A DNA stretch of 38,383 nt from Deltaproteobacteria bacterium (GCA_018645085.1 JABGPG010000171.1:1-38383); one strand, 5' to 3'; shown: positions 1,398-20,610, counted from the stretch's first letter. Numbers and translations are program-made. Notes: generated from the letters alone by a model not told the origin.

Positions 1398-2294
1398 TTA
1401 TTTAACTGCACCTGTTGAAAGACCTTTGACAATATAATTTTCAAGGAAAATCCCAATAATAGCCAGTGGTGCAATAGCCGCTGTTGAGAGTGCAGCCATC
1501 GACCACCAGTTGATTCCTTGTGATCCTGTTTGACTTGCCACCATCACTGGTAAAGTTTTTGCGTCGGCACTCGTCAGGAGCGCCGCAAAAAAATATTCGT
1601 TCCAAGTCAACACAAGGCACAGAATGAAAGCCGCAACCATTCCCGGGAAGGAAATCGGCAGTACGATCCGCAGGAATACTCCCCAAACACTTAGTCCGTC
1701 CACTAGCCCCGCTTCTTCAAGTTCAATCGGAATTGTGCTGAATTGATCACGCATTATCCAGATTACTATTGGTAGAACCATGAGTCCATAAAGCATTACC
1801 AAACCAATAGTTGTATCAAGCAATGCCAATTCGCGGTATAGGACCAGAAACGGTAATGCGAGGACCACCGGTGGAAGGATCATCTGAGAAAGGAAGAAAA
1901 AAGAAATGTCCGTATTCTTAACAAAACCTAATTTGTACTCAAAACGACTGAGTCCATAGGCGGCAAGTGAACCCAGCATTACTGCCAGTACGGATGCACT
2001 TACGGAAGTGATGACGCTGTTAAAAAACCTTTTGAGAAATTCTTCGCGGACTGTTGAGATCTCAAAAATGGTGTCCGGAGATAAACCTAATGAGCGGAAA
2101 CCAATCCACTTTGGAGTGAAATCAATCCACGGTATTAAATGCCCTTGCATTACATTGACTGCGGCTTTGAAAGATGTGGTGATGCTCCAATAAATAGGAA
2201 ACAAACACAAAAAGGCCCAAAATAAAAGTGCGCCATAAATCAAGATGCGATAGACGACAAGGTTCACTCCACTAGAATATTCATTTTGCTTCAT
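1398..2294 (-). CDS. Carbohydrate ABC transporter permease, MalG/UgpE type
   Basis: This is an inner-membrane permease of the CUT1 sugar-importer class with about six membrane segments. The EAA loop that contacts the ATPase is visible near residues 193-214 (EEAGLVDGLSVWGVFLRIVL). The frame extends upstream to a TTG at 2312. I prefer the ATG at 2294 because it overlaps the stop of the preceding permease gene as ATGA, the usual sign of translational coupling. The protein is then 298 residues, normal for MalG/UgpE. It pairs with the permease at 2291-3382 and the binding protein at 3514-5178. The matching ATP-binding subunit is not present in the window. Confidence 0.92.
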   Translation of the reverse strand: MKQNEYSSGVNLVVYRILIYGALLFWAFLCLFPIYWSITTSFKAAVNVMQGHLIPWIDFTPKWIGFRSLGLSPDTIFEISTVREEFLKRFFNSVITSVSASVLAVMLGSLAAYGLSRFEYKLGFVKNTDISFFFLSQMILPPVVLALPFLVLYRELALLDTTIGLVMLYGLMVLPIVIWIMRDQFSTIPIELEEAGLVDGLSVWGVFLRIVLPISFPGMVAAFILCLVLTWNEYFFAALLTSADAKTLPVMVASQTGSQGINWWSMAALSTAAIAPLAIIGIFLENYIVKGLSTGAVK

Positions 2295-3382
2295 GTAACT
2301 TTTTGCATCCAACGGTTAAGAAAGTTTAAGAAGGCCGTCATCAAAATGACAATCATAATCAAATAAACAACAGCCATCATTGTTCCATATCCCACATTTG
2401 AACGGTCACGATACTCCCGGAAAATAAAACTGGTTACAGTATCAGTTGCGCCTCCCGGCCCTCCGGAAGTGACATTAATGACGATGTCTGCTAGTTTCAA
2501 TTTAAAAATAATCCTGATTACAGTTGCCGTGACACTGACGGGAAGCATTAGCGGAAAGGTGATTTTCCAGAAATGCTGCCAGTTGTTCGCTCCATCAATC
2601 CTTGCGGCTTCATTGACTTCTTTGGGTAATGCCTGCAATCCTGCGAGTAACATGATCATCATGAACGGAATAAAAGTCCACGCATCCAAGATCATGATAC
2701 TCAAGCGTGCGATTTCCGGTGTTGAAAAGAATGCTGGATTTTCCCAACCTAATTGGCGTGCAAGGGTAGCTGCCGGGCCAAAACGGTATTCCATAAGTGA
2801 CTTGCCTAACATCCAACTGACTGCAACCGGACTTAGCATTAAAGGCATCAAGAACACTACCCGAAAGAATTTTCTAGCTACGATTTGCGCGTTTAGTAAC
2901 AATGCGAGTCCGAAGGCTATCGCATATTCGAACAGTATTGCAATTAAGTAATAGAGCATGTTCAACATGGAGTTCCAGTAATAGGTGTCTCCAAGCAAAG
3001 CTATGAAATTATCAATTCCATTGAACTTTTGCCCTTCAAATGCGCTAAGATTCCAGTCGTGTAGAGAAATGTACACACTAAAAATGAGAGGAAAAATGAC
3101 CATCGCAATTGTGAAAAGAAAGGCAGGAAGAACAAAAAGTGCCCGTTGGCCTCGCTCGCCTTTTATAAGGGTAATCCCCCAGCATAGAGCAAGTGACCAA
3201 ATCAGGTATGCATAGAGGATAGGACGCCAGTTGTCAAATCCAGCAGTAATGCTGCCGGCTCTATGTAAAGTTTGTGTGATGAAAAGAGCAACTAACAAAA
3301 TAGTAGCAATGAGAATCATTGCCTGTCCGAGGGCTTTCCGTTTAGCAGGAATATGATCCGTGCCGACGTAAGTCGATGTCAT
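2291..3382 (-). CDS. Carbohydrate ABC transporter permease, MalF/UgpA type
   Basis: This is a 363-residue membrane protein and the first permease of a CUT1 sugar importer. It has two extra hydrophobic segments at the N-terminus (about residues 20-37 and 54-73) before the usual six-helix permease core, an arrangement also seen in MalF-like proteins. The EAA loop is at about residues 256-278 (NEAARIDGANNWQHFWKITF). The ATG at 3382 follows a 131-base gap after the binding-protein gene, and that gap holds a stem-loop at 3455-3485. The 3' end overlaps the next permease start by four bases. Substrate is inferred only from context (L-fucose or a related sugar). Confidence 0.92.
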   Translation of the reverse strand: MTSTYVGTDHIPAKRKALGQAMILIATILLVALFITQTLHRAGSITAGFDNWRPILYAYLIWSLALCWGITLIKGERGQRALFVLPAFLFTIAMVIFPLIFSVYISLHDWNLSAFEGQKFNGIDNFIALLGDTYYWNSMLNMLYYLIAILFEYAIAFGLALLLNAQIVARKFFRVVFLMPLMLSPVAVSWMLGKSLMEYRFGPAATLARQLGWENPAFFSTPEIARLSIMILDAWTFIPFMMIMLLAGLQALPKEVNEAARIDGANNWQHFWKITFPLMLPVSVTATVIRIIFKLKLADIVINVTSGGPGGATDTVTSFIFREYRDRSNVGYGTMMAVVYLIMIVILMTAFLNFLNRWMQKVT

Positions 3383-3513: not shown

Positions 3514-5178
3514 TTATGACAAACCGAGAGAGGCACGGTAAAGCTCAAGTTGCTTTTTCCGGCCGATCTGATCAGTAAGTTTCTCCCAGGCAGCCGCAAT
3601 GTTATCGGCTCCAGTCTGGGCATCAAACTTTCCTGCAAATATTTTAGACAACTCATCTTCTGCTACACTGTAGTACTGGAAAATTCCAGGAATACGAGGT
3701 TCAATTGCAGCATTAGGATGGTTGTAGGAATTTGACTCAGAGTCCAAATAGGAAGTGATAAATTCCCTGTCATATCCTGCATTGACCCATTCATCAATGT
3801 TGAAGTGACTGTTACGATATGGTTGGAAACCTGACGGATAAGCAGAAGCCCAGAGAGAGATGTCTTTGCCGCCAAGATGAGCAGCAGCACTCCAAGCAGC
3901 CTTACGCTTTTTGGAATTACTGTCCACACGAGCCATGACATATACTCCCCAGCCAATGTAGGCCATATTTGGGGCGTAGTTTGGACCACCGGGCAATGTG
4001 TCCCATTTACCTGTTTGGGAATTATAAACATCGTCTGATCCAGGCAGGATGTCGAAACCTACGACATCACCAACTACAGAACCGTCACTGGTTTTTGCCA
4101 TGGAACCGACATCACCCCACCAGGATAGCATTGATCCAGTTCCTGCAAGAAACTGCTGAAATGCAGTAGTGCCTGGATCGGCGTTCAATTGGTTGGCGGG
4201 TTGTGAAGGCAATACGTCAATTACATCCTGAATTGCCCGAACCCAAGCTGGATTATTCACGCGAGGTTTCATCGTATCTGCGTCAAACAACCACGCCGGA
4301 TCGTTCGGATGCTTGGCATAGGCAGTTGCACGGCTGGCCAGAAAATAGAAACCGAATCCTCCCCAGCCTTTTGCTGGATCAAGATAACCGTATGCATCAC
4401 CTCCAAAGGTTGGATCTTTTTTACCTTTTAGAAATTTGCTTACTTCCTGAACCTGTTGCCAGGTTTGTGGTACACCCCAGGTTCCTTTATGCCCTTCAGC
4501 TTTCCAAGCAGCAGCAAAACCGGCATCTTTAAAATAATCTGCCCGGTAATTGAAGTTGTGACAGTCTCCGTCAATTGAAATTCGATAGGTTTTTCCATTC
4601 CATGTTCCAACGGGAGCTTTAAGATAGTCGACATAGTCATCCATTTCTATTTGTTCCTTGACCCATTCAGGCATTTCTGAGGCAAGTCCCTTTCCACAGA
4701 CGTCTCCTTCGAATGGAGCACCCATTTCCAAAATATCAAAGTCAACGGTTTGGGTAGCAATGGATTGTTGAAGTCGTGCATTGTAATCCGCCTGCGCTAA
4801 ATCAATCCATTTTATTTTTGCACCAGTGTATTTCTCCCAAGGCTTCAGAAATCCTCGGAACAAAAAGTTGTGCAGGTTCTGATTGTTCAGTCCCATGAAG
4901 GTCAACTCAACCCCATCAAACTCACCTTTTGAAACACGCGCCTTAGTCGGATTAAGGCACATTGCTCCGACTTTTTGCCAGTCAGAATCTGTAGGGGATC
5001 CCTTTCCAACTCCTGGAATTTTCAAAATCTCACTTCTTAGATTACTTGCAGCAGAAGCATTCTTGGCGAATAGGCCAAGACTTGCACCCGAACCGGCGGC
5101 AATTACGCTTGCTCCGGCAACAGCCGTAGATGCGTCTTTAACAAATTGGCGACGATTTATTTTTTTTGCTTTGGTCAT
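3514..5178 (-). CDS. Sugar ABC transporter substrate-binding protein with Tat signal
   Basis: This is a 554-residue extracytoplasmic solute-binding protein, inferred to belong to the family-1 sugar binders (MalE/UgpB-like) and expected in the periplasm. The N-terminus is a twin-arginine signal: NRRQFVKDAS at residues 8-17, then a hydrophobic Ala/Gly-rich stretch and an Ala-rich cleavage region near ASA at residues 41-43. No lipobox is seen. The mature protein is longer than the roughly 400 residues usual for CUT1 binders. A strong Shine-Dalgarno (AAAAGGAG) lies just before the ATG at 5178. Two sugar permeases follow, and inverted repeats lie upstream. Export in folded form could mean a cofactor or tightly folded protein. 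L-fucose as ligand is inference from neighbours. Confidence 0.9.
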   Translation of the reverse strand: MTKAKKINRRQFVKDASTAVAGASVIAAGSGASLGLFAKNASAASNLRSEILKIPGVGKGSPTDSDWQKVGAMCLNPTKARVSKGEFDGVELTFMGLNNQNLHNFLFRGFLKPWEKYTGAKIKWIDLAQADYNARLQQSIATQTVDFDILEMGAPFEGDVCGKGLASEMPEWVKEQIEMDDYVDYLKAPVGTWNGKTYRISIDGDCHNFNYRADYFKDAGFAAAWKAEGHKGTWGVPQTWQQVQEVSKFLKGKKDPTFGGDAYGYLDPAKGWGGFGFYFLASRATAYAKHPNDPAWLFDADTMKPRVNNPAWVRAIQDVIDVLPSQPANQLNADPGTTAFQQFLAGTGSMLSWWGDVGSMAKTSDGSVVGDVVGFDILPGSDDVYNSQTGKWDTLPGGPNYAPNMAYIGWGVYVMARVDSNSKKRKAAWSAAAHLGGKDISLWASAYPSGFQPYRNSHFNIDEWVNAGYDREFITSYLDSESNSYNHPNAAIEPRIPGIFQYYSVAEDELSKIFAGKFDAQTGADNIAAAWEKLTDQIGRKKQLELYRASLGLS

Positions 5179-5400: not shown

Positions 5401-6471
5401 CTAAAACAAAAACATACCTTTTTCTAAGACTTTTTTACCGTCCAGATAAAGTGCACCTTCTTCACGCAAATCTTTAATAAGATCCCAATGAAAAGCAGAT
5501 TTGTTGATTCCCCCACATTCAGGGTATGCACGTCCAAGTGCAATGTGAACTGTACCTCCTATCTTTTCATCAAAGAGTAAATCGTAACAGTACCTGCTGA
5601 TACTGTAGTTTGTACCCACACCAAATTCGCCTATTCTCTTGGCACCTGCATCCATACCAATTAAATCCAAAAGCAGTTTCTGATTCTTGTCGGCAGTTGC
5701 TTCAACTACCTCACCTTTTGAGAATTGTAAGCGGATACCTTCGATAAACTGTCCGGCAAAAACTGCAGGAAATTCGAAAGAAATGCTTCCCTCAGCACTG
5801 TCATCGGTCGGTGCTGTATAAATTTCACCTCCGGGCATGTTGATATGTCCGTCGTCAATCTGATAGCTTCTTCCCTTCGTATTTAAGCTCAGGTCAGTAC
5901 CATTGCCGACAATCCGGATTTGTTCAGTTGTTTGCATTTTTTTCCGGATGGAGTCGTAACGATTGCTTTCTTCTTGCCAGTCGAGCAACGTTGCGTTAAA
6001 GAAGAACTCCATCATTTCGTCTGTACTAAATCCGGCCTGTTGAGCAAAAGATGTGTTAGGAACTCTAACTAGAACCCAACGGGTCTTTTCTGTACGTAAG
6101 GCTGAAATTTTACCCAAGGCCCGCCGGAAGGCTGTTATACGTTCGGCTGCTATATCATTCAGTTCATGTGGATTACTTGCACCTCGTAGTCCGATGTATA
6201 CGTCTGCCCACTCCATCCCCTTTCTTTGAAGCTCATGTTCATTATCAAACAGGTTTGGATCTCCTTCAAGCATCAAGTCCCGTTGTAGCAAGGTGGACTG
6301 AAATTCAATATGTGGATGAGCACCAACCTTAACTGCCGCAGCATGAACTGCACGCGCTAACGGCCATGTATCTGTTTCCATCATAGTGATCAAGACTCGG
6401 TCGCCCTTCCTGGTCGTGGTCGAGTAATTAACCAGGATGTCAGCCAGTTGTTTCCAGCGAGGATCAAGCAT
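5401..6471 (-). CDS. M29-family metallopeptidase (aminopeptidase T-like)
   Basis: This is a 356-residue cytoplasmic protein of the M29 (AmpT/AmpS) family. The dinuclear metal ligands known for the Geobacillus enzyme have counterparts with matching spacing: E216 (MPGGE), E282 (GEFGVG), H309 (HIALG), Y316 (RAYPE), H328 and D330 (HWDLI). The family normally releases N-terminal amino acids from peptides, but relatives also include a ring-cleaving dioxygenase, so substrate is not certain. It sits 20 bases after the BtpA-like gene and upstream of a sugar transporter, an unexpected place for a peptidase. No Shine-Dalgarno is evident before the ATG, so translation may be coupled to the gene before it. 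Confidence 0.9.
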   Translation of the reverse strand: MLDPRWKQLADILVNYSTTTRKGDRVLITMMETDTWPLARAVHAAAVKVGAHPHIEFQSTLLQRDLMLEGDPNLFDNEHELQRKGMEWADVYIGLRGASNPHELNDIAAERITAFRRALGKISALRTEKTRWVLVRVPNTSFAQQAGFSTDEMMEFFFNATLLDWQEESNRYDSIRKKMQTTEQIRIVGNGTDLSLNTKGRSYQIDDGHINMPGGEIYTAPTDDSAEGSISFEFPAVFAGQFIEGIRLQFSKGEVVEATADKNQKLLLDLIGMDAGAKRIGEFGVGTNYSISRYCYDLLFDEKIGGTVHIALGRAYPECGGINKSAFHWDLIKDLREEGALYLDGKKVLEKGMFLF

Positions 6472-6491
6472 AATAAATAGATTTTGAAAAA

Positions 6492-7292
6492 TTAGCGTAA
6501 AGTTTCAACTTTCTCCATAAATTTTTGAACTCGATCAGGGTCAACAGAGTTCCATGTGTCGCCATCATACTTGAGGTGCGAACCAATCACGCAACCATCA
6601 GTTACCGAAAAAAGCTCAGCTACGGTGTCGATGTTCACCCCGGTGTTAGCTAGTAATGGGGTCTCAGGAAGAGCTTCCCTGGCTTCCCGTAATTCTGTCT
6701 GGTCTACGCCCATACCGGTCATAGGCCCAGAAACACAAACCACATCAGCCTTGGAAGAGAAGACCGCACTCTTTGCCTTAACGGCCAAAGGTCGTGTATC
6801 AAGCGAGGTGGCAAATTCAGCATTAATATTAAAAATCATTTGCAGGTCAGAACGACCTTGTGAGGATCGTAACCTCGCTGCACCGGCACAATCGGGTGTC
6901 CAAAGTCCCATGTCAGAGGCATAGACACCAGTAAATATTTCACGTGCGAAATTCGCATCTGTCGCAACTGCCAAAGCCACGGTAGCGACTGGATCCCACA
7001 AATAATTAACTCCGAATGGAATCTTTATCATTGATTTAACTTGCCCAATAACAGAAGCGAGAGCCGCTAAACCTTCAGGTGGAGCCTTGAGAACATAAGG
7101 TCTGTCAAACTCATTGCCAAACATTACGGCATCTACTCCTCCAGACTGAAGTGCTTCAAGATCAGCTACTACAGAATCTAAAATCTTATTCATTCCTGTT
7201 GCAGAATCGTAATCTGGAGAACCGGGTAAAGCAGGTACATGGACCATTGCTATCACTGTTTTTCTACCCAGTTTTATTGTTGAATCAAACAC
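6492..7292 (-). CDS. BtpA/SgcQ family TIM-barrel protein
   Basis: The 266-residue protein matches the BtpA/SgcQ family: an early MVHVPALPGSPDY segment, GVDAVMFGNEFDRPY, the GVNYLWDP strand, a VCVSGPMTGMGVD segment and a late LLANTGVNIDTVAE with CVIGSHLK. These fit alternating strands and helices of a phosphate-binding-type TIM barrel. BtpA was named for photosystem I biogenesis in cyanobacteria, while SgcQ lies in an E. coli sugar operon; no general catalytic activity is established. Here it lies between a DeoR regulator (35 bases upstream) and the M29 gene (20 bases downstream), so a role in sugar metabolism, perhaps as lyase or aldolase on a phosphorylated intermediate, is my inference. Confidence 0.85.
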   Translation of the reverse strand: MFDSTIKLGRKTVIAMVHVPALPGSPDYDSATGMNKILDSVVADLEALQSGGVDAVMFGNEFDRPYVLKAPPEGLAALASVIGQVKSMIKIPFGVNYLWDPVATVALAVATDANFAREIFTGVYASDMGLWTPDCAGAARLRSSQGRSDLQMIFNINAEFATSLDTRPLAVKAKSAVFSSKADVVCVSGPMTGMGVDQTELREAREALPETPLLANTGVNIDTVAELFSVTDGCVIGSHLKYDGDTWNSVDPDRVQKFMEKVETLR

Positions 7293-7327
7293 TGCTTCCT
7301 CTGTTATTTACTAACTGTTATTTTGAA

Positions 7328-8101
7328 TTATTTGGCGATGAGTACTTTAATTCCCTTCTCCTCCAAACTATTAATGTATGAAGAGTCCGCTTCAGAATCT
7401 GTAATCAAGATGTCAATTTGTTCCAGTGAAATCACTTTTGAAAAAGTCACATTTCCCAGTTTTGTTGAATCCGCTAATACAATCGATTGTTTGGAGTTTT
7501 CTATGATGCTTTTCTTGACTTGGGCATCTTCGGTATTATACTCTGTAAGTCCTGCTTTCAGGTCTATTCCACCAGCACCAATGAAAGCTTTATCTACATT
7601 GAACTCGTTAATGGTATTCTCTGATATTGGACCAACTATTGACATTTCTCCAACTCTAACAACACCGCCGGTCACTATTAGCTTAATAAGCGAATTTCCA
7701 GCAAGCTCCATTGCATGTTCCAGACTTGGCGTGATTACAGTCAGGTTTTTTCGTTTCTTTAGTAATTGAGCTAACTCTCTTGTGCTTGAACCAACATCTA
7801 GAATTAGTGTGTTGCCTTCAGTTATTAATTCATTGGCCACCTTGGCAATAGCCTGTTTTGCACCGGTCCTTAATCCTTTTCGTGAAAAATATGGGGGTTC
7901 ATAGCCTCTGCTAATGTTACTGACTGCTCCACCATGAACTCTCAGCAATAATCCATCTTTTGCAAGTTCATCCAGATCACGAGTGATTGTCATTCGTGAT
8001 TTACCAAGTTTTTTAGCAAGTTCTGAAATCTTTATCCCACCTGTCTTTTTAAGGGTTTCAAGGATAAATTGCTTGCGGCTGTTGGCGACTAAATGTTTCA
8101 T
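7328..8101 (-). CDS. DeoR/GlpR-family transcriptional regulator
   Basis: This is a 257-residue regulator. Residues about 5-60 form the DeoR winged helix-turn-helix (ISELAKKLGKSRMTITRDLD, then LLLRVHGGAV). The remainder is the DeoR sensor domain, with the family signatures LDVGSSTRELAQLL, VTGGVVRVGEMS, FIGAGGIDLKAGLT and VLADSTKLG. Proteins of this class usually repress sugar catabolic operons until a phosphorylated sugar binds. It is embedded between the kinase gene and the BtpA-like gene, so the kinase product is a plausible ligand. The ATG at 8101 lies only ten bases after a good -10 element (promoter at 8111-8139) and lacks a clear ribosome binding site. Confidence 0.93.
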   Translation of the reverse strand: MKHLVANSRKQFILETLKKTGGIKISELAKKLGKSRMTITRDLDELAKDGLLLRVHGGAVSNISRGYEPPYFSRKGLRTGAKQAIAKVANELITEGNTLILDVGSSTRELAQLLKKRKNLTVITPSLEHAMELAGNSLIKLIVTGGVVRVGEMSIVGPISENTINEFNVDKAFIGAGGIDLKAGLTEYNTEDAQVKKSIIENSKQSIVLADSTKLGNVTFSKVISLEQIDILITDSEADSSYINSLEEKGIKVLIAK

Positions 8102-8110
8102 AATGTGACA

Positions 8111-8139
8111 AAGATAAGATTTTTATGTTAAATTGTCAA
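8111..8139 (-). promoter_or_regulatory. Sigma70-type promoter for the DeoR gene
   Basis: On the minus strand TTGACA (8134-8139, a perfect -35) is separated by 17 bases from TATCTT (8111-8116, four of six -10 matches). A start point about seven bases downstream would fall near 8104, only a few bases before the ATG at 8101, giving an almost leaderless message. A run of seven G on the same strand (8156-8162) lies upstream of the -35 box. Confidence 0.6.
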
Positions 8140-8266
8140 ATATAAAAACATATATCCCCCCCATTTATAGTATGAAGAATTTCTTATATGGATGTAAGCT
8201 ATTGAAAATAAATAAAAATTGTAAGTTAATCTTAAAGTAATATTATTCTTGTAATCAGCTCAAACA

Positions 8267-9772
8267 TTATTCTGTCAGTTTTTGTCGAATATTTTTTAAT
8301 TCTTCATAACTTGCTTTATATGTTTCGTAAAACGGCTGGTACTCTTCATGAATCTTTTGATCGGGTTCAATCACACGGTCAATTTGCACCATCTGCTCTA
8401 CTGCTTTTGGAATATCTTCGTAAAATCCGGCTCCTACAGCGGCAAGTATAGCGCAGCCCAACAAAGGAGCATCTGGATTTTTGGTAAGTGTCAATGGTAA
8501 ATTTGAAACATTTGCGTGTATTTGAAGCCACAATTCTGAGCGTGTTGCACCTCCGGAAACTACCACGCTCTCCGGAAAAAATCCGTTACTGCGCATGGTC
8601 TCTAAAATCAACTCGCTGCCGAAAGCAACGCCTTCAATTGTTGCCCTAAAAAGATGCCCACGGTCATGTTTGAGGGTCAGTCCATGAAAAGCTCCACGAG
8701 ACCTTGGATCGGTGTGTGGAGTCCGATTTCCCTGAAAATGTTCTTGCACTATCAGCCCCTCTGATCCAGGTGGAAGTTTCAAGGCTTCACGATTTAGTGC
8801 CTCATAGTCTGGTTCTCCAAACAAGTTCTTCAGCCAGTTCACGACAGATCCGGTTGATGTTTGACCGCCCTCCACTGTGTAAAGTCCTGGTAAAAGCGCA
8901 TCTGCATAGGTACCCCAAATTCCAGTTCCATGAAAAGGTTTTTCGCTTAATCCAAGTTGTAGATGAGATGAGCCGGTAATGAAAGCAAGGCTCCCTGGTT
9001 TGACTACTCCCAATCCAATCATGCCTATTTGTGCGTCCGCCCCTCCTTGCACAACAGGCAAATCAGCATGCAAACCAAGATGTTCTGCTGCAGTTGGAGT
9101 CAAGCCACCGACCACCTCGCCAAGCCTAAGTACTTTCTCCGGCCACTTTTCGGAGAGTTCTTCCAACTCCAGTTTTTCCAGCAATGTTTCTGGGACTCCG
9201 TTTTTGGAATAATCGCAATGCCAGCGGGCTGACACATTGTTGATACTTGCTGTTAGACGACCAGTGAGGTGAAAATTAATGTAATCCTGATACTCGCAAA
9301 TCGTGACTGCCTGTTTAAAAAGTTCCGGCTCTTTCTGCTTGATCCAAAGGGCTTTTGGAATCATCCATTCTGCGGAAACAGGGCCATTGCCATTGCTGTT
9401 GATTCGCAAGGCTTCGTCCTTGGTCTCAACCATTTGTTCTGCTTGTTCGGCACTGCGAACATCCATCCAAATAAGTGCTGGACGGAGAGGATTTCCATTC
9501 TTGTCAAGTGCCACAACGCTGCAACAAGTCGTGTCCACTGCCATAGCCGCGATTTGTTCGGTGCCTATTCCTGAATCCTGAATCACTTTCCGTACTGACT
9601 TACCAAGAGCATTCCACCAGTCTTGAGGGTCTTGTTCTGCCCAACTTGGAGCAGGAAACTGAGTTGGGTATGTCGTAGAAGCATAGGCGAGTGGACTTCC
9701 GGATGTATCAAAGATTCCGGCACGAAGACCTTCAGTCCCTCCATCAACCCCAAGCAGATATTTCTTATTCAT
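8267..9772 (-). CDS. FGGY-family carbohydrate kinase
   Basis: This is a 501-residue sugar kinase of the FGGY family with the hexokinase/actin fold. The N-terminal phosphate loop is LLGVDGGTEGLRAG (residues 6-19). WMDVRSAEQA, EYQDYINFHLTGR and VVQGGADAQIGMIGLG mark the first domain, followed by ITGSSHLQLG and the C-terminal VVSGGATRSELW and LLGCAILAAVGAG. The frame is open back to 9841, but that would overlap the SDR gene by 62 bases; the ATG at 9772, eight bases after the SDR stop, starts exactly at the family's conserved beginning. It would phosphorylate a ketose or polyol. A kinase is not needed in the oxidative fucose route, so it may serve a second branch. Confidence 0.92.
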   Translation of the reverse strand: MNKKYLLGVDGGTEGLRAGIFDTSGSPLAYASTTYPTQFPAPSWAEQDPQDWWNALGKSVRKVIQDSGIGTEQIAAMAVDTTCCSVVALDKNGNPLRPALIWMDVRSAEQAEQMVETKDEALRINSNGNGPVSAEWMIPKALWIKQKEPELFKQAVTICEYQDYINFHLTGRLTASINNVSARWHCDYSKNGVPETLLEKLELEELSEKWPEKVLRLGEVVGGLTPTAAEHLGLHADLPVVQGGADAQIGMIGLGVVKPGSLAFITGSSHLQLGLSEKPFHGTGIWGTYADALLPGLYTVEGGQTSTGSVVNWLKNLFGEPDYEALNREALKLPPGSEGLIVQEHFQGNRTPHTDPRSRGAFHGLTLKHDRGHLFRATIEGVAFGSELILETMRSNGFFPESVVVSGGATRSELWLQIHANVSNLPLTLTKNPDAPLLGCAILAAVGAGFYEDIPKAVEQMVQIDRVIEPDQKIHEEYQPFYETYKASYEELKNIRQKLTE

Positions 9773-9779
9773 TGCGGAA

Positions 9780-10568
9780 TCACCATTTTTTGTGGTCATG
9801 ACCAACTGCCCTGTCGAAATGAGTGTAACCTCCATCCACAAAGACTAATTGCCCAGTGGTATGGGAAGAACCATCAGAAGCCAGAAAGACAATTGTTTGG
9901 GCTATTTCCTTAGGTGTCGTAAGTCTCTGTGCAAACGGAACGAGGTCAGCAACAGCTTTTTTAGCGGTTTCCGGATTAGTTTGGATTTGGAAAAATTTTT
10001 CGTATTGATCAGTGAGACATTCCGCGGGAATAACACAATTGACGCGGATTTTATCTGGAGCCAAAGCTACCGCCCATTCTCTGGTAAGTCCACTGATTGC
10101 CCCCTTTGCGGCGGCATAAGCGGAAGTATTGCCCTGTCCTGTAACTGAAACTTTTGAGCCAAGATTAAGAATACATCCCTGTCCTATACGAAGTTGAGGC
10201 AGTGCATAATGCGTCATTGCATAAACATGCAGAAGATTATTTTGCACAGAAATCATAAAATCTTCAGGAGGAGCATCAAGACCTAAACCGTCATTAAATC
10301 CGGCATTATTCACCAGAACATCCAAGCCACCGAACACAGAAACCGTTTGCTCGATTGCTTTTTTACATGCTTCGGTATTTGTAAGATCAGCCTCAATATA
10401 CCGGACTCTGGAGCCTAAGGCTTTCTCCAAAGCCATCCCAGTTTCTGCATCCCGGTCAACCAACACCACTTTACAATCCTCCGCCGAAAATGCCTCGACA
10501 GTTGCGGCACCGATGCCTTTTGCTCCGCCTGTAACGAGTACAATTTTATCTCTTAGTCCTAAGTCCAT
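9780..10568 (-). CDS. SDR oxidoreductase, probable L-fucose dehydrogenase
   Basis: This 262-residue short-chain dehydrogenase has the NAD(P)-binding TGGAKGIG at residues 13-20, NNAG at 87-90 and the catalytic S138, Y151 and K155 (YAAAK). From memory, the segments VTGQGNTSAYAAAKGA, LTREWAVAL, VIPAE and the ending FVDGGYTHFDRA resemble the SDR-type L-fucose dehydrogenases of Burkholderia. The reaction would oxidise L-fucose at C1 to the lactone. The alternative is 2-keto-3-deoxy-L-fuconate dehydrogenase, which is also an SDR in the Xanthomonas fucose cluster. FucU lies 33 bases upstream and the kinase starts eight bases downstream, so this is an operon member. Confidence 0.88.
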   Translation of the reverse strand: MDLGLRDKIVLVTGGAKGIGAATVEAFSAEDCKVVLVDRDAETGMALEKALGSRVRYIEADLTNTEACKKAIEQTVSVFGGLDVLVNNAGFNDGLGLDAPPEDFMISVQNNLLHVYAMTHYALPQLRIGQGCILNLGSKVSVTGQGNTSAYAAAKGAISGLTREWAVALAPDKIRVNCVIPAECLTDQYEKFFQIQTNPETAKKAVADLVPFAQRLTTPKEIAQTIVFLASDGSSHTTGQLVFVDGGYTHFDRAVGHDHKKW

Positions 10569-10601: not shown

Positions 10602-11063
10602 CTACATTACTTTGCCATCCGGAGCAATCACTCCTTTTGTGATCATAAAACAACCATATGGGCGGCGTTCTGCTGTCGCAATTACCGCATAAGTTTTACG
10701 GGACAATTCATAAAAGCTGTGTCGTTCCACGGAATCCATCTTCCATTCTCGATCAGAATTTTCCAAAGCAATTCGATGCAAATCAGTATGTACCTCAAGC
10801 GTGGTTTCGGGTTCTCCCACCACCTGCATGTGCTGAATTGGGGCTTCAATGAAACTATCCAGTGGAAAAACCGAAAATATTGCCTGGGCAATTTCCGGAA
10901 TTCCGGCTCCATCGAACCTAATCACTTCTCCATGAACAGTTGTCGAGGCCACAGAATCGGCAGGGAAATTACTGTCAACAATTGTAAGCACGTCTCCATG
11001 TCCCATAGCACGGAGAATATAAAGCAAGTTTGGATTTAATAAGGGATCAAGATTTTTTAGCAT
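10602..11063 (-). CDS. fucU: L-fucose mutarotase, RbsD/FucU family
   Basis: The protein has 153 residues when started at the ATG at 11063. The frame opens further to 11120, but homology begins with LKNLDPLLNPNLLYIL. The family signature MGHGDVLTIVDSNFPA (residues 20-35) holds the catalytic His22, and RPYGCFMITKGVI (134-146) is the conserved C-terminal edge with the Tyr used in sugar binding. FucU interconverts the alpha and beta anomers of L-fucose in the cytoplasm and so feeds the dehydrogenase encoded just downstream. Its presence, with FucD, is the main reason for calling the cluster a fucose pathway. The related RbsD is shorter and acts on ribose; the NFPA motif fits FucU better. Confidence 0.88.
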   Translation of the reverse strand: MLKNLDPLLNPNLLYILRAMGHGDVLTIVDSNFPADSVASTTVHGEVIRFDGAGIPEIAQAIFSVFPLDSFIEAPIQHMQVVGEPETTLEVHTDLHRIALENSDREWKMDSVERHSFYELSRKTYAVIATAERRPYGCFMITKGVIAPDGKVM

Positions 11064-11166
11064 AATTCTACCAAGGTTTCTGGTTAATGGTTTTAGCCAC
11101 AGATTTTCGCTGAGGCACATGTATATTATTTATCCGTTCTTATTTGTGAAAATCTGCTACCAACTT

Positions 11167-12063
11167 CTAAAGTTGGTAGAGTCGTTCGGCATTTATGCTA
11201 AACAGTTTCTCTTGAACAACAGTAGGACGAGTTGAAACAATTTCCTTAAGTGCTGCGATCCATTGAGACAAACTTGCGCCAAGGGTGCATACTGGCCAAT
11301 CTCCTCCAAACACAACTCGATTTTCTCCAAAGGCCTCAAGGCAGGTATTGACTGTCGGTGCTAGAGTTTCTGCATTCCAGTCGGTTTCCGCACGAGCTAC
11401 TATTCCGGAAATTTTGCAGTAGACGTTTTTAAGTTCTCCCAATTTGAAAATTCCGTTTTGCCAACTTTCCTTGGAGTGTACAAAAGTACTATCAGAACTG
11501 GACGAACCGATTTTACGTTGCCCGTTGATTATGTATGGATCAGCGTTTCCGCAATGGTCAAGAACAAAAGTTGTCTCCGGAACCTGACGGCATAGCTCAA
11601 CCGCATCATGAAGTTCCGCCGGGCGTATGCAGATGTCAAAGAGTAAATTCCTCTTGCCCAAAGCACGAAGGCCCTGCACAAATTCCGGAGTGAGGCAAGA
11701 TTTAGGAGCTTGTTCCGGATTGTGAAGAACTTGCCGCACACCTTTGATAAAAGTGTTGTAGGAATTAGCATCCAGAAATTTAGCAAATCCAGGTTTTCCC
11801 GGATCAGCGGAAACGACCATCCCAAGCATTTCATTAGAATCTGCCTGACAATACAGAGTCATGTCGTCAATCTCTTTCTGCTTGTCATCCGGATGTGTGT
11901 CCACCTCCATATAAATGGTTCGAGTCACGCCGGAATTTTCTGCTGCTTTGAGATAATTCGAAATTTCGAAACTGCGGTTAAGTGTAGGAACACCTTTCAC
12001 CCAGGGTAATTTTAGCCGGTCAAGATTCCAAAGATGTTGGTGTGTGTCAATAATGTCGAGCAT
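11167..12063 (-). CDS. Amidohydrolase-2 family hydrolase, probable L-fuconolactonase
   Basis: This 298-residue TIM-barrel amidohydrolase (COG3618 type) carries DTHQHLW at residues 6-12, KGVRQVLH, VLDHCGNAD, CKISG, FGGDWPV and the C-terminal NAERLY, the standard series for this family. In characterised fucose and rhamnose gene clusters such proteins open the sugar lactone ring to the free acid, here L-fuconolactone to L-fuconate, the substrate of FucD (14647-15945). The gene lies about 100 bases upstream of fucU and downstream of the deacetylase gene on the same strand. 2-pyrone-4,6-dicarboxylate hydrolase is a more distant alternative and does not fit the neighbours. Confidence 0.88.
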   Translation of the reverse strand: MLDIIDTHQHLWNLDRLKLPWVKGVPTLNRSFEISNYLKAAENSGVTRTIYMEVDTHPDDKQKEIDDMTLYCQADSNEMLGMVVSADPGKPGFAKFLDANSYNTFIKGVRQVLHNPEQAPKSCLTPEFVQGLRALGKRNLLFDICIRPAELHDAVELCRQVPETTFVLDHCGNADPYIINGQRKIGSSSSDSTFVHSKESWQNGIFKLGELKNVYCKISGIVARAETDWNAETLAPTVNTCLEAFGENRVVFGGDWPVCTLGASLSQWIAALKEIVSTRPTVVQEKLFSINAERLYQL

Positions 12064-16041: not shown

Positions 16042-16893
16042 TCAACGCACACGACTCAAACGTGGATCGAGAATATCACGCAAACCGTCGCCTAGCAGAT
16101 TCAAGCCTAGAACTGTGAAGACAATCGCGAGGCCGGGCAGGATTGCGAGTTGAGGCGCAAAAAACATCATCGTCTGCGCTTCACTGAGCATTTTACCCCA
16201 GCTTGGCATAGGAGGTTGTGTGCCGAGTCCAAGGTAACTCAGTCCTGCTTCTGCAAGGATTCCCAAAGCGAATTGAATAGTTATCTGCACGATGAGGACA
16301 CTCCCGATATTTGGTAAGATATGTTCAACCGCAATCCGTACTTCACCTTTACCTGCGGTTCTGGCCGCCAGAATGAATTCACGTTTGTAAACACTCAAAG
16401 CGCTTCCTCTGGTAATTCTGGCAAAAACCGGAATATTGAAAATACCGATTGCCAGCACAGAATTTAGCGTTCCAGGACCATAAACTGCGGAGAGCATAAC
16501 TGCGGTCAACAAGGCCGGAAAGGCAAAAGCAAAGTCATTGAAACGCATCACAGTTTCTTCAACCCATCCGCGTTTTGCTGCGGCCAAAGCTCCCAGCGGA
16601 ACTCCGATTCCTGCTCCGAAACCAATCGCAAAGACCGAAACCAGCATTGAGTTCCAGGCACCTACCATCAACATTGAAAAAACATCGCGTCCAAAATGAT
16701 CAGTTCCCAGCCAATGCTTTGCGGACGCGCTTTCCAACTTGTGAGGTATGTCCAGCAGTTCCACAGGAAAAGGTGTCCAGAACAAGGAAAGCAGTCCGGT
16801 AAACAGCATCATAAAACTGAGAATCAGTCCGATTACAAAACTACGGTGCTGCAAACTGTTCTGCCAGAATTCACTAAGTCTTGATTCATTCAT
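16042..16893 (-). CDS. Peptide/nickel-type ABC transporter permease, DppC family
   Basis: This 283-residue inner-membrane permease has an N-terminal cytoplasmic stretch, one hydrophobic segment (about 18-40), the family linker HWLGTDHFGRDVFSML (residues 60-75) and a five-helix permease core. The ATPase-contact loop REFILAARTAGKG and the following LPNIGSVLIVQ are typical DppC/OppC features, as is the ending LGDGLRDILDPR. Its ATG overlaps the DppB stop by four bases (ATGA). The ATPases that usually follow (DppD/DppF) are absent; the next gene downstream is fucD. Substrate class (di/oligopeptide) is inferred from the linked peptidase and binding protein. Confidence 0.93.
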   Translation of the reverse strand: MNESRLSEFWQNSLQHRSFVIGLILSFMMLFTGLLSLFWTPFPVELLDIPHKLESASAKHWLGTDHFGRDVFSMLMVGAWNSMLVSVFAIGFGAGIGVPLGALAAAKRGWVEETVMRFNDFAFAFPALLTAVMLSAVYGPGTLNSVLAIGIFNIPVFARITRGSALSVYKREFILAARTAGKGEVRIAVEHILPNIGSVLIVQITIQFALGILAEAGLSYLGLGTQPPMPSWGKMLSEAQTMMFFAPQLAILPGLAIVFTVLGLNLLGDGLRDILDPRLSRVR

Positions 16894-17840
16894 GCGCTAC
16901 CTCCACGCAATCTTGGATCAAGCGCCACATAAAACATATCAACCAGGAAATTGACAGTCACTACAGTTGCAGCCAGTAAAATTACAATGTTCTTAACTAC
17001 CACTAAATCCCTTTGCGCAATTGCCTGAAAAAGGAGGCGTCCCAGTCCGGGCAAATAAAAAACATTTTCTATGATGATAGTTCCTGCCAGCAAAAATGAA
17101 AGTTGTAAACCGAGAATTGTCACTACCGGAATGAGAGCATTTCTGACTGCATGTTTCCAAAGTACTGCATTCCTGCTGAGCCCTTTTGCACGTGCAGTGC
17201 GCACAAAATCTTCGCGAACGGTTTCTAAAACTGCAGAACGTGTAACGCGGGCCAAAATTGCGGCCTGAGGCAGGGCCAGAGCAATTGCGGGTAAGGTTAA
17301 AGATTTGAGTGCGGCAGCCAAACCCATTTCCCAACCGGCAAAACCTCCTGCTGAAAACCAGCCCAGTTTGACTGAAAAAAATAAAATCAACAGAATCGCA
17401 AACCAGAAATTTGGAATGGCGACTCCTAATTGAGCAAAGCCCATGATTCCTGTATCAGCGATTCGCTTATGATTTGCGGCAGCAAAAACGCCTAAAGGAA
17501 TGGCCAGAAAAGTCGAAAGCGTAATGGCCAGCAAAGCCAGCGGTAAACTGAGGGAGAGGCGCTCTAAAATCAATGAGGAAACGGGAGTGTCATAAGTGTA
17601 GCTGCGCCCAAAATCACCGCTTAATATGCCGCTGATCCAGCGGAAGTAGCGTTCCGGAGCAGAAAGATCGAGCCCCATTTCTGTCCGGAGGGCAGACAAC
17701 GTGTCCTCCTGCGCACCGATTCCAAGTATGATTGATGCAGGATCACCGGGAAGAATTTCCAGCAGCAAAAAAATTACCAGTGAGGCCACCAGCAAAGTAA
17801 TGAGCAAAGCAAAGAGTCGTTTTGCGAGGAAGAATGTCAT
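16890..17840 (-). CDS. Peptide/nickel-type ABC transporter permease, DppB family
   Basis: This is a 316-residue membrane protein with the DppB/OppB layout: first helix at residues 8-30, ILPGDPASIILG, then RYFRWISGILSGDFGRSY, a hallmark of the periplasmic loop. The permease core contains the EAA-type loop DFVRTARAKGLSRNAVLWKH. It ends with FVDMFYVALDPRLR. It pairs with DppC, whose start overlaps this stop. The 53-base gap to the binding-protein gene upstream contains a strong stem-loop (17856-17883), and no Shine-Dalgarno is evident before the ATG. Confidence 0.93.
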   Translation of the reverse strand: MTFFLAKRLFALLITLLVASLVIFLLLEILPGDPASIILGIGAQEDTLSALRTEMGLDLSAPERYFRWISGILSGDFGRSYTYDTPVSSLILERLSLSLPLALLAITLSTFLAIPLGVFAAANHKRIADTGIMGFAQLGVAIPNFWFAILLILFFSVKLGWFSAGGFAGWEMGLAAALKSLTLPAIALALPQAAILARVTRSAVLETVREDFVRTARAKGLSRNAVLWKHAVRNALIPVVTILGLQLSFLLAGTIIIENVFYLPGLGRLLFQAIAQRDLVVVKNIVILLAATVVTVNFLVDMFYVALDPRLRGGSA

Positions 17841-17855
17841 TTAACTTGGAGGGCT

Positions 17856-17883
17856 GGCGTTCCAGTTATTTTGCTGAAACGCC
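17856..17883 (-). promoter_or_regulatory. Intercistronic stem-loop between binding-protein and DppB genes
   Basis: Bases 17856-17865 and 17874-17883 form a ten-pair stem on the minus-strand RNA with one U-G pair and an eight-base loop (GGCGTTTCAG against CTGGAACGCC). It begins ten bases after the binding-protein stop and ends 15 bases before the DppB ATG. There is no T-tract, so attenuation or protection of the upstream mRNA from 3' decay is more likely than termination. Confidence 0.6.
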
Positions 17884-17893
17884 TTTTGTGTTA

Positions 17894-19387
17894 CTAATTT
17901 TTCCAGCTTACACCGGTCAAATCATTGGCTTGAACGGGGCTGTTTTCCCAGAGTCCCATCACGTTTTTGTTCCAGATTCCGAGCTTCGCCAATTGAAAAA
18001 GATAACCGTTAACAGCATCTTTCGCGAGAATTGCCTGTGCGGCACCCATCAACGCATAACGTTTTTTGGGATCTGCAGTGACATTCAAGTCTGCAATGAC
18101 TGCGTTGAATCCGGCATTCCGGTATTGAAAATAATATTTAGGACGAGTGTAAATTCCAATGTCCATTGGTTCTGTGTGAGAGACAATTGTCAGGTCAAAG
18201 TCTTTATTTTTGAAAACTTGATCTAGCCACTGTGCCCACTCTACAGGAATAATTTCCAATTTGATTCCGACTTTAGCCAATTGCGATGCAACAATTTCTC
18301 CCCCACGTCGTGCATAACTCGGTGGTGGCAATTTGATAGTCGCTTTGAACCCGTTGGGATATCCTGCATCTGCAAGTAGTTGCTTGGCCTTTTCTGTATC
18401 ATGCGGATAAGTTCCGGTCAGATCAACATAAGCAGCATGATGCGGCGCAAAATGAGTTCCGATTGGAGTTCCAAAACCAAACATCGCACCGTCAATTATT
18501 TCCTGTGAGTTAAGCGCATGTGCAATTGCCTGACGAACGCGAAGGTCATCAAAAGGTTTTTGCAGGTTGTTGGTGGAGAGAATTGTTTCACCCTCAGTAC
18601 TGCCGACTTTTACAGTGAAACGAGAATCGCTTTGAAATTGAGCAGCCATTTCCGGAGCAGGAAAGTTGGCAAAAGCATCGACATCACCGGCCATCAAAGA
18701 CGCTACTGCTGCAGCAGGATCCGGAATGATTTTGAAAGTTGCGGATTTCAACGCGGGTTTTTCACCCCAGTAATTCGCGTTTTGTCCCAATTCAATCCGG
18801 TCACCCTTGACCCAGCGTTTGAAAGTAAAAGGCCCGGTACCAACAGGTTTACTTTTGTTTGAAGCTGCACTCGAGGAATCAACCATCACAGCATCGCCCC
18901 AACCCATGTTGAACAGGAAGTTTCCGGTTGGTGTTTTCAAGGTGACAACCACTGTATTTGCACCCTGTGCACTTACGCCTTTAATCGCGGCGAAAAGCGC
19001 TTTCTGAGCATTTGTACTTTTTTCCGATCTGGCACGGTCCAATGAAAAAACGACATCTGCAGAATCAAATGCAGAACCATCATGGAACTTAACTCCGTTG
19101 CGGAGTTTAAATGTGTAAGTCAGTCCGTCTGCGGAAATTTTCCACGACTCCGCCAGCGCGGGTAGTACTTCCGCATTTTGGTTGATCCGAGTCAGTCCCT
19201 CAAAAACGTTGGCGTAAACCACTTCGTCAATCGCAGCCGCTGCTCCAGCGGTAGGGTCAAGATGAGGCGGTTCTAAGACCATGCCCATCGTCAAATGTGT
19301 TTTTCCGGCAAAGGCAGATCCGGCAAAGATCAGTGCGGATCCACTGATCAGCAAAACTTTTGCATATTTTTGAATGATATGTTTCAT
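17894..19387 (-). CDS. Peptide ABC transporter substrate-binding protein (SBP family 5)
   Basis: This 497-residue periplasmic binding protein has a Sec signal peptide (hydrophobic residues about 9-26, cleavage likely after AFA at residue 27). The family-5 signature lies near residues 75-100: LAESWKISADGLTYTFKLRN and the following VKFHDGSAFDSADVVFSLDR. Later segments include PVGTGPFTFKRW and VRQAIAHALN. It would deliver di- or oligopeptides, or a similar ligand, to the DppB/DppC permeases encoded downstream. A P1-family peptidase gene lies 107 bases upstream on the same strand, which fits a peptide-use operon. Confidence 0.93.
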   Translation of the reverse strand: MKHIIQKYAKVLLISGSALIFAGSAFAGKTHLTMGMVLEPPHLDPTAGAAAAIDEVVYANVFEGLTRINQNAEVLPALAESWKISADGLTYTFKLRNGVKFHDGSAFDSADVVFSLDRARSEKSTNAQKALFAAIKGVSAQGANTVVVTLKTPTGNFLFNMGWGDAVMVDSSSAASNKSKPVGTGPFTFKRWVKGDRIELGQNANYWGEKPALKSATFKIIPDPAAAVASLMAGDVDAFANFPAPEMAAQFQSDSRFTVKVGSTEGETILSTNNLQKPFDDLRVRQAIAHALNSQEIIDGAMFGFGTPIGTHFAPHHAAYVDLTGTYPHDTEKAKQLLADAGYPNGFKATIKLPPPSYARRGGEIVASQLAKVGIKLEIIPVEWAQWLDQVFKNKDFDLTIVSHTEPMDIGIYTRPKYYFQYRNAGFNAVIADLNVTADPKKRYALMGAAQAILAKDAVNGYLFQLAKLGIWNKNVMGLWENSPVQANDLTGVSWKN

Positions 19388-19494
19388 AATTTCTCTGGAA
19401 AAATTTAAATATTAAAAAGACCTCCCTGCGGAAGTTGATTAAAAAGAAGAAGGTGTATCATTACAAAAACTTTATTAAATTGCAAATATAATTA

Positions 19495-20610
19495 TTATTG
19501 TACTGAATTCCTATAACCAGGCCAGGCACCTAAAGATTCTGCTGCATAAACACCACGGGCAATTGCCCTAGCTACACAATCCGCGGCCATCATTCCCAAG
19601 CGGGCGATGTCGATCGGCGGCATTTTTGAAAGTGGAATTTTCCCAGTGGCCAAAACGAAGACGGTGTCTCCGTCAAAAGGTGTGTGAACGGGTCGAATAG
19701 CACGTGCAAAACCATCCTGCGCCATAATCGCAACCCGCTGAGCCTGCGCCTTGGTGAGAACAGCATCAGTCGCAACTACGCACAAAGTGGTATTTGTGGA
19801 GACACTATTCGCAAAGGCATCATTTCCTGACTTGTCTCCATTCCCGGGGGAATGTTCCGTATCTTTGAAAGGACTTTCTAAATCAAAATCCAGCGCTAAT
19901 TCGTTGATTTTGTTTATTTCGGATTTTCCACCTTTTGCTGACAAAACTTTTGGTGCACCTCTGCCGCCATATTCTGCGTTTCGTTCAAAAGGCCAGGCCC
20001 AGAAATCCGGTAGTCCAGGTAGAGTTACCGAACCGAATGGACTTACCGCTGCTAAGGCACCCACTGTAAAACCTTTTTCAACAGAATTATCCTGATTTTG
20101 CTGCAGGGAAGCTGTTCCGATACCACCTTTAAGTTTTCCGGCTTTTGCTCCAGTTCCCGCACCGACATTACCCAGCGGACATTCGTAGCCCGCGTTAACC
20201 GCAGCTTTTTTCCCAAACTCAAAATAAGTATGCTCATCCATTGCGGATTTTTCGCCGCCGTTGAGTAAATCAAAGAGAATTGCCGCCGGAACTATAGGTA
20301 CCGAAACATCTTTCGCTACCAGAAACCCGCGTCCTTGTGTTTTTAACCAGGCTGCAACTCCCCCGGCCGCATCCAGTCCCATTGCAGAACCCCCGCTGAG
20401 CACGACAGCGTGTACCTCTTCAACCAGATTTGCCGGATGAAGGGCATCGGTTTCACGTGTTCCAGGGCCTCCTCCCCTGCAATCCACTGCGGCTACCGCT
20501 GCAAAGTCCGGAAGAATTACTGTTGTTCCGCTCATCAATTTCATGTCCTGCGCGTGTCCTACTTTGATGCCGGAAACGTCGGTAATACTGTTTTTTGGTC
20601 CTGGCTGCAT
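19495..20610 (-). CDS. P1/S58-family peptidase (DmpA-like aminopeptidase)
   Basis: This 371-residue protein is a self-processing N-terminal nucleophile peptidase of the DmpA/BapA family. The start (NSITDVSGIKVGHAQ), VDCRGGGPGTRETDAL, VVLSGGSAMGLDAAGGV and GNVGAGTGAKAGKLKGGIG are family motifs. The NTTLCVVATDA segment near residue 278 holds the predicted cleavage site, a Thr becoming the nucleophile of the small subunit. Such enzymes cleave D-amino-acid or beta-peptide N-termini. No signal peptide is visible. It lies 24 bases after the GspL-like gene and ahead of the peptide transporter, so it could process imported peptides. Confidence 0.9.
   Translation of the reverse strand: MQPGPKNSITDVSGIKVGHAQDMKLMSGTTVILPDFAAVAAVDCRGGGPGTRETDALHPANLVEEVHAVVLSGGSAMGLDAAGGVAAWLKTQGRGFLVAKDVSVPIVPAAILFDLLNGGEKSAMDEHTYFEFGKKAAVNAGYECPLGNVGAGTGAKAGKLKGGIGTASLQQNQDNSVEKGFTVGALAAVSPFGSVTLPGLPDFWAWPFERNAEYGGRGAPKVLSAKGGKSEINKINELALDFDLESPFKDTEHSPGNGDKSGNDAFANSVSTNTTLCVVATDAVLTKAQAQRVAIMAQDGFARAIRPVHTPFDGDTVFVLATGKIPLSKMPPIDIARLGMMAADCVARAIARGVYAAESLGAWPGYRNSVQ

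Follow-up and report, generated by a model that had tools for sequence, protein, structure and literature searches.

An SgcQ-type BtpA protein paired with phosphorylation systems and an M29 metalloprotein in a SAR324 operon

The FGGY-DeoR-BtpA-M29 operon and its conservation in SAR324

We analyzed a stretch of 38,383 nucleotides from a marine SAR324 bacterium (GCA_018645085.1, JABGPG010000171.1:1-38383), referred to here as the window. Four genes on its minus strand are the subject of this work, and the initial annotation had assigned them to positions 5401 to 9772. We found all four in place, and each scored above its Pfam cut-off. The FGGY carbohydrate kinase (8267 to 9772) matched FGGY_N with 153 bits and FGGY_C with 133 bits. 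The DeoR-family regulator (7328 to 8101; DeoRC and HTH_DeoR) lies between the kinase and a BtpA barrel protein of the SgcQ type (6492 to 7292, 266 aa), which scored 245.7 bits for PF03437 (cut-off 30) and 248.9 bits for TIGR00259 (cut-off 153.4). The last of the four encodes a short-type M29-family metallo-aminopeptidase-like protein (5401 to 6471, 356 aa; PF02073, 213.9 bits, cut-off 27). The pairing of a kinase with an SgcQ-type BtpA recurs in several phyla, and it represents a real, uncharacterized sugar pathway.

Nine other SAR324 genomes carry the cluster, either in full or as a part cut off by a contig end. Across 52 genomes of the SAR324 phylum, nine have both M29 and the window-type BtpA, 42 have neither, one has M29 only, and none has BtpA only; the single M29-only genome carries its M29 gene at the start of a contig. 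The co-occurrence gave a Fisher p of about 3e-9 in the phylum and 4e-4 within the genus, statistics that ignore relatedness. M29 and BtpA are thus gained and lost together in SAR324, and this co-occurrence, with the recurrence in nine genomes, shows that the gene arrangement is not a matter of chance. The regulator is part of the operon in some SAR324 clusters only, and other relatives lack it at that spot. In one genome (G002, C46:916-1974), the M29 frame contains one TGA and one TAA, so this copy is degraded or misassembled (loci L022 and L035).

In another genus of the SAR324 family, the trio of kinase, BtpA, and M29 (loci L036/L062 and L038/L039) is accompanied by MtnK, MtnA, DhaK, DhaL, and a different ATP-binding cassette (ABC) importer, and no fucose genes were found beside the trio at these loci. 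The MtnK (S-methyl-5-thioribose kinase) and MtnA (isomerase) proteins of this genus exceeded their profile cut-offs. Therefore, the trio can exist as a unit apart from the fucose route. At L062 (6088 to 13479), the order MtnK-MtnA-FGGY-BtpA-DhaK-DhaL-M29 forms one apparent operon, in which BtpA and DhaK overlap by a few bases.

In the window, the order of transcription is lactonase-like amidohydrolase, FucU, L-fucose dehydrogenase (FucDH), FGGY, DeoR, BtpA, M29, solute-binding protein, and two permeases, all on the minus strand. FucDH (9780 to 10568), a short-chain dehydrogenase/reductase (SDR) with 329 bits for NF052481 (cut-off 300), marks the oxidative L-fucose pathway in this operon. The trio itself lies outside that pathway, which is not known to need a kinase. 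The kinase start was called at TTG 9841 in a longer open reading frame; ATG 9772 is 7 bp past the FucDH stop. Upstream lie the FucU-type mutarotase (10602 to 11120; PF05025) and a fuconolactonase-like amidohydrolase-2 protein (11167 to 12063; PF04909), which scored 114.8 bits for NF052480, below the cut-off of 400. Downstream lie a putative sugar ABC solute-binding protein (3514 to 5178; no Pfam match) and two PF00528 sugar permeases (2291 to 3382 and 1398 to 2312) whose positions are kept in relatives. A 75% identical homologue of the solute-binding protein occurs near BtpA-FGGY in a member of the Geminicoccaceae (L080), and the protein also resembles the SBP_bac_1 protein of L062. An Opp-type peptide transporter next to an S58 peptidase (16042 to 20610) lies upstream of the fucose cluster.

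Phosphorylation partners and predicted fold of SgcQ-type BtpA

A tree of 66 BtpA proteins, from which L171 was left out because of a stop within its matched stretch, resolved an SgcQ-type clade (26 rows, support 100/99) and a classical side (40 rows). The window BtpA belongs to the SgcQ type and is 50% identical to Escherichia coli SgcQ over 256 aa. Nearly all loci sampled from this clade adjoin an FGGY kinase or a phosphotransferase system (PTS); two members, L110 and L125, drawn from the 80-locus scan described below, have no FGGY within 10 kb. We found no FGGY adjacent to classical BtpA in stretches of 1.5 to 6 kb. At the classical locus L046, an FGGY gene lies 3.7 kb off with other genes between. 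Cyanobacterial and other classical BtpA proteins share the Pfam family and, by homology, the barrel fold with the window protein, but they differ in their active-face residues and, in the stretches read, in having no FGGY adjacency. The window protein scored 141.7 bits for the photosystem I/tetrapyrrole BtpA equivalog NF045918, below its cut-off of 400. A divergent BtpA (38%; L057), which forms a long branch at the base of the SgcQ clade, occurs with FGGY, SDR, a ribose-type ABC transporter, and HAD. At L056 and L232, a BtpA about 68% identical to SgcQ occurs without FGGY but with a sugar-phosphate isomerase, a PIG-L deacetylase, Gfo/Idh, and an alpha/beta hydrolase.

A genome scan returned 536 relatives of the window BtpA. 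Neighbourhoods were counted for the best 80, of which five are from SAR324 and the others mostly from Alphaproteobacteria; the genomes given G numbers are metagenome-assembled genomes (MAGs) or assemblies, the counts ignore relatedness, and unannotated neighbours were labelled by tblastn to reference proteins. FGGY lies within 10 kb of BtpA at 73 of the 80 loci and is directly adjacent on the same strand at 56. An SDR is near BtpA at 65 loci and a DeoR regulator at 61. The same DeoR-BtpA-FGGY-SDR-ABC set occurs on annotated plasmids of Rhizobium, Salipiger, Labrenzia, Shinella, and Thermus, and in a low-GC genome from another phylum (G514, L213). The alphaproteobacterial and Thermus operons, some with an added HAD gene, share with the window the BtpA clade (58 to 64% identity for the alphaproteobacterial loci), FGGY, DeoR, and an ABC sugar importer. 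However, their kinases belong to another FGGY clade (about 30% identical to the window's), their SDR is 3AK4-like, and they have no M29 or M42. A second wide genome sample recovered the same loci. SgcQ-type BtpA was not found in small-sample phylum searches around G054, G056, and G057, the viral contigs searched gave no match, and none of the open-access papers searched named both BtpA and FGGY.

The conserved SDR of the Rhizobium locus, present at L048, L052, L213, L231, and most alphaproteobacterial loci, has quinuclidinone reductase 3AK4 as its closest match (365 bits), and the BtpA-FGGY-SDR operon may point to the natural role of that enzyme. Six loci (L080, L092, L094, L106, L129, and L137) carry a dimethylformamidase (DMF-amidase) beta-like protein about 2 to 3 kb from BtpA-FGGY, several with a small partner protein. 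This pair and the other amide-hydrolase neighbours in Alphaproteobacteria (GGT, allophanate hydrolase, amidases, and a creatininase-like protein) are suggestive at most and were not used as evidence.

The window kinase fell below every NCBIfam equivalog cut-off: XylB was best (316 bits against 380), followed by ribulokinase (292 against 428), and with an L-fuculokinase score of 145 against 471 we rejected that identity. The SAR324 and Rhizobium BtpA proteins are 62% identical, whereas their partner kinases are 30% identical. When placed in a tree alongside known E. coli kinases, the partner kinases span at least three FGGY clades; the L170 kinase clusters with kinases lacking a nearby BtpA, and several long branches make exact placement unsure. 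In E. coli and Salmonella, a PTS stands in for FGGY beside SgcQ, and PfkB adjoins BtpA of a classical subclade (L046 and L058). That BtpA is found again and again beside unrelated phosphorylation systems is the strongest clue to function in these data. This pairing strongly favours a TIM-barrel branch coupled to a kinase, and we consider a kinase-coupled BtpA module highly probable. The pairing, together with the trio's occurrence apart from fucose genes, supports the possible second, phosphorylation-dependent branch of the initial annotation. That annotation also proposed a kinase followed by a TIM-barrel lyase; the kinase-coupled barrel is supported, but the lyase is not, because no barrel-strand lysine is conserved and the signature of a class I aldolase is therefore missing.

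The AlphaFold2 model of the window BtpA had a predicted local distance difference test (pLDDT) score of 93.9. In a Foldseek search the model matched phosphate-binding barrels best (GGGPS/PcrB, TrpF, ThiE, KDPGal aldolase, and RPE), and the matches included no close relative with a solved structure. The glycine loops after beta7 and beta8 are common to the window protein and TrpF, RPE, KDPGal aldolase, and PcrB/GGGPS, but identity is only 10 to 16%, the template modelling score by query length is about 0.5 to 0.6, and the window protein has no catalytic strand lysine. The only conserved lysines are K11, before beta1, and K241, after beta8, and a class I (Schiff-base) aldolase was therefore rejected. 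At the C-terminal strand ends, the active face changes from the classical to the SgcQ type by N118E, D155N, K159E, H160F, and GS216-217NT, and many active-face residues are near-invariant across the SgcQ clade. The classical D155, K159, H160, G216, and S217 are accordingly absent from the window BtpA, which has N, E, F, N, and T. From the model and the loop motif, we infer that BtpA may bind phosphate at the beta7/beta8 loops. The conserved acids E118 and E159 suggest a potential for acid-base catalysis, and metal-dependent cleavage may also occur. We lean slightly toward BtpA being a non-Schiff-base enzyme that acts on the phosphorylated product.

Exchange of M29 and M42 proteins

As the initial annotation had claimed, the window protein is an M29 homologue with all metal ligands. 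Alignment to PepS, AmpS, and AmpT placed E216, E282, H309, H328, and D330, together with Y316, at the ligand positions of AmpT and AmpS, and the five ligand columns are invariant in the M29 alignment. The structure model reached a pLDDT of only 42, with five close sequences, so the metal site rests on the alignment. The window protein is about 50 to 60 residues shorter than PepS, AmpS, and AmpT, and the loop that connects its histidine ligands is also shorter.

The neighbourhood of FGGY, BtpA, and M29 is conserved in SAR324, with and without fucose genes, and it recurs as a compact BtpA-M29-FGGY three-gene operon in a different phylum (G068, L170), whose M29 is 48% identical to the window's. 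A second genome of that phylum has FGGY-M42-BtpA (G140, L171). Generic M29 proteins are 34 to 37% identical to the window protein. BtpA was not found near the plasmid M29 genes of Anoxybacillus, Deinococcus, and Halorussus, and these generic plasmid proteins (35 to 37% identity) were therefore ruled out as part of the system.

In E. coli and Salmonella, SgcQ is encoded in an operon with a PTS and the M42 protein SgcX. The E. coli sgcXBCQAER operon resembles the window in combining a same-clade BtpA, a regulator, a sugar-phosphorylating system, and a protein of metallo-aminopeptidase fold. It differs in using a PTS rather than FGGY and M42 rather than M29, and in encoding SgcE, an RPE-like epimerase with no counterpart in the window. 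M29 and M42 have unrelated folds, and both carry out metal-dependent hydrolysis of the aminopeptidase type. Their exchange, across two M29 and two M42 lineages, suggests an activity of this type that the pathway needs. The idea of a non-peptidase M29 found no support, since M42 aminopeptidase folds take its place in sister operons, and a NicX-like dioxygenase, known elsewhere among M29 proteins, was rejected because it does not fit the M42 exchange. Tentatively, the substrate may contain an amide or aminoacyl bond that M29 or M42 hydrolyzes.

A candidate pathway and its alternatives

We propose a phosphorylation-dependent catabolic module that is separable from the oxidative fucose route, a reading whose prospects we judge to be evenly balanced. 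The ABC importer would take up a sugar or sugar conjugate, and the FGGY kinase would phosphorylate it. SgcQ-type BtpA, holding the phosphate in its beta7/beta8 loops, would carry out acid-base chemistry, which might be isomerization, epimerization, or TrpF-like reversal of an N-glycoside or Amadori linkage, but not class I aldol cleavage. M29, or M42 in the sister operons, would cleave an amide or aminoacyl bond in substrates of the same family, and DeoR would regulate the gene set. A sugar linked through nitrogen would explain why M29 and M42 are exchanged, and it would fit a 2026 transcriptome study that assigned no function and found sgc to be induced under nitrogen-containing slow growth (PMC13343008). 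In its most specific and rather speculative form, SgcQ-type BtpA would be a phospho-sugar C-N enzyme, such as a TrpF-like reverse-Amadori enzyme or deglycase, in a widespread sugar-amino acid or sugar-amide pathway, in which FGGY or PTS would phosphorylate the sugar and M29 or M42 would have been recruited independently for trimming the amino part.

Several observations weigh against this proposal. M29 was seen outside SAR324 only once, M42 was seen in two lineages, and neither lies within 10 kb of BtpA at any of the 75 non-SAR324 loci, which are mostly alphaproteobacterial; the hydrolase is therefore not obligatory, or it is replaced by other enzymes. The phosphate site is predicted from a model and a motif, not seen in a bound structure. 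Mutants in sgc had no growth defect, including on 190 Biolog carbon sources (PMC13343008). The SDR at 65 of the 80 loci points to a polyol or ketose pathway without nitrogen. In such a pathway, the SDR would make a ketose, FGGY would phosphorylate it, BtpA would epimerize or cleave the ketose phosphate, perhaps with a metal, and M29 would be an accompanying general aminopeptidase. This plain ketose pathway with a hitchhiking M29 is a serious rival, although we think it the less likely of the two. It would draw together the 3AK4-like SDR, the DeoR regulator, the ABC transporter, and an often present HAD phosphatase; the five-part set of DeoR, BtpA, FGGY, SDR, and ABC transporter extends to Thermus and G514. 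It would also suit the absence of both M29 and M42 from most loci. The DhaK/DhaL genes right after BtpA in L062 would fit a dihydroxyacetone product. However, it leaves unexplained both the alternation of M29 and M42 in sister operons and the strict co-occurrence of M29 with BtpA in SAR324, and a class I aldolase would have to work without a conserved strand lysine.

The other explanations are improbable. SgcQ-type BtpA could be a chaperone or regulator rather than an enzyme, because cyanobacterial BtpA binds and stabilizes the glutamyl-tRNA reductase GluTR, according to the review PMC11449065, which cites Skotnicova 2024, and PTS chaperone-like features have been ascribed to SgcQ (PMC13343008). 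But the near-invariant active-face residues of the SgcQ clade form a set distinct from that of classical BtpA, and partners as unrelated as different kinases and a PTS argue for metabolic coupling. Slightly less probable still is an accessory role for these genes within the oxidative fucose route itself. They run in the same direction as FucDH, whose gene stops just short of the kinase, and this association is kept in several SAR324 genomes; however, the trio occurs with MtnK/MtnA/DhaKL and without fucose genes at L062/L036 and L038/L039, and FGGY-BtpA pairs without fucose genes are found across phyla. Chance or hitchhiking neighbours with no functional link are very improbable. M29 and FGGY are common families, and the SAR324 genomes are related MAGs, but the association is clade-specific and recurs across phyla with independent kinase clades.

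A phosphorylation-dependent module would thus give SgcQ a defined upstream enzyme. Its tie to partner FGGY kinases means that the product of those kinases should be the substrate of SgcQ, and the pairing gives a concrete way to test the role of SgcQ, with the residue comparison supplying candidate catalytic residues. It also sets the SgcQ-type clade apart from the photosynthetic BtpA, whose name misleads annotation.

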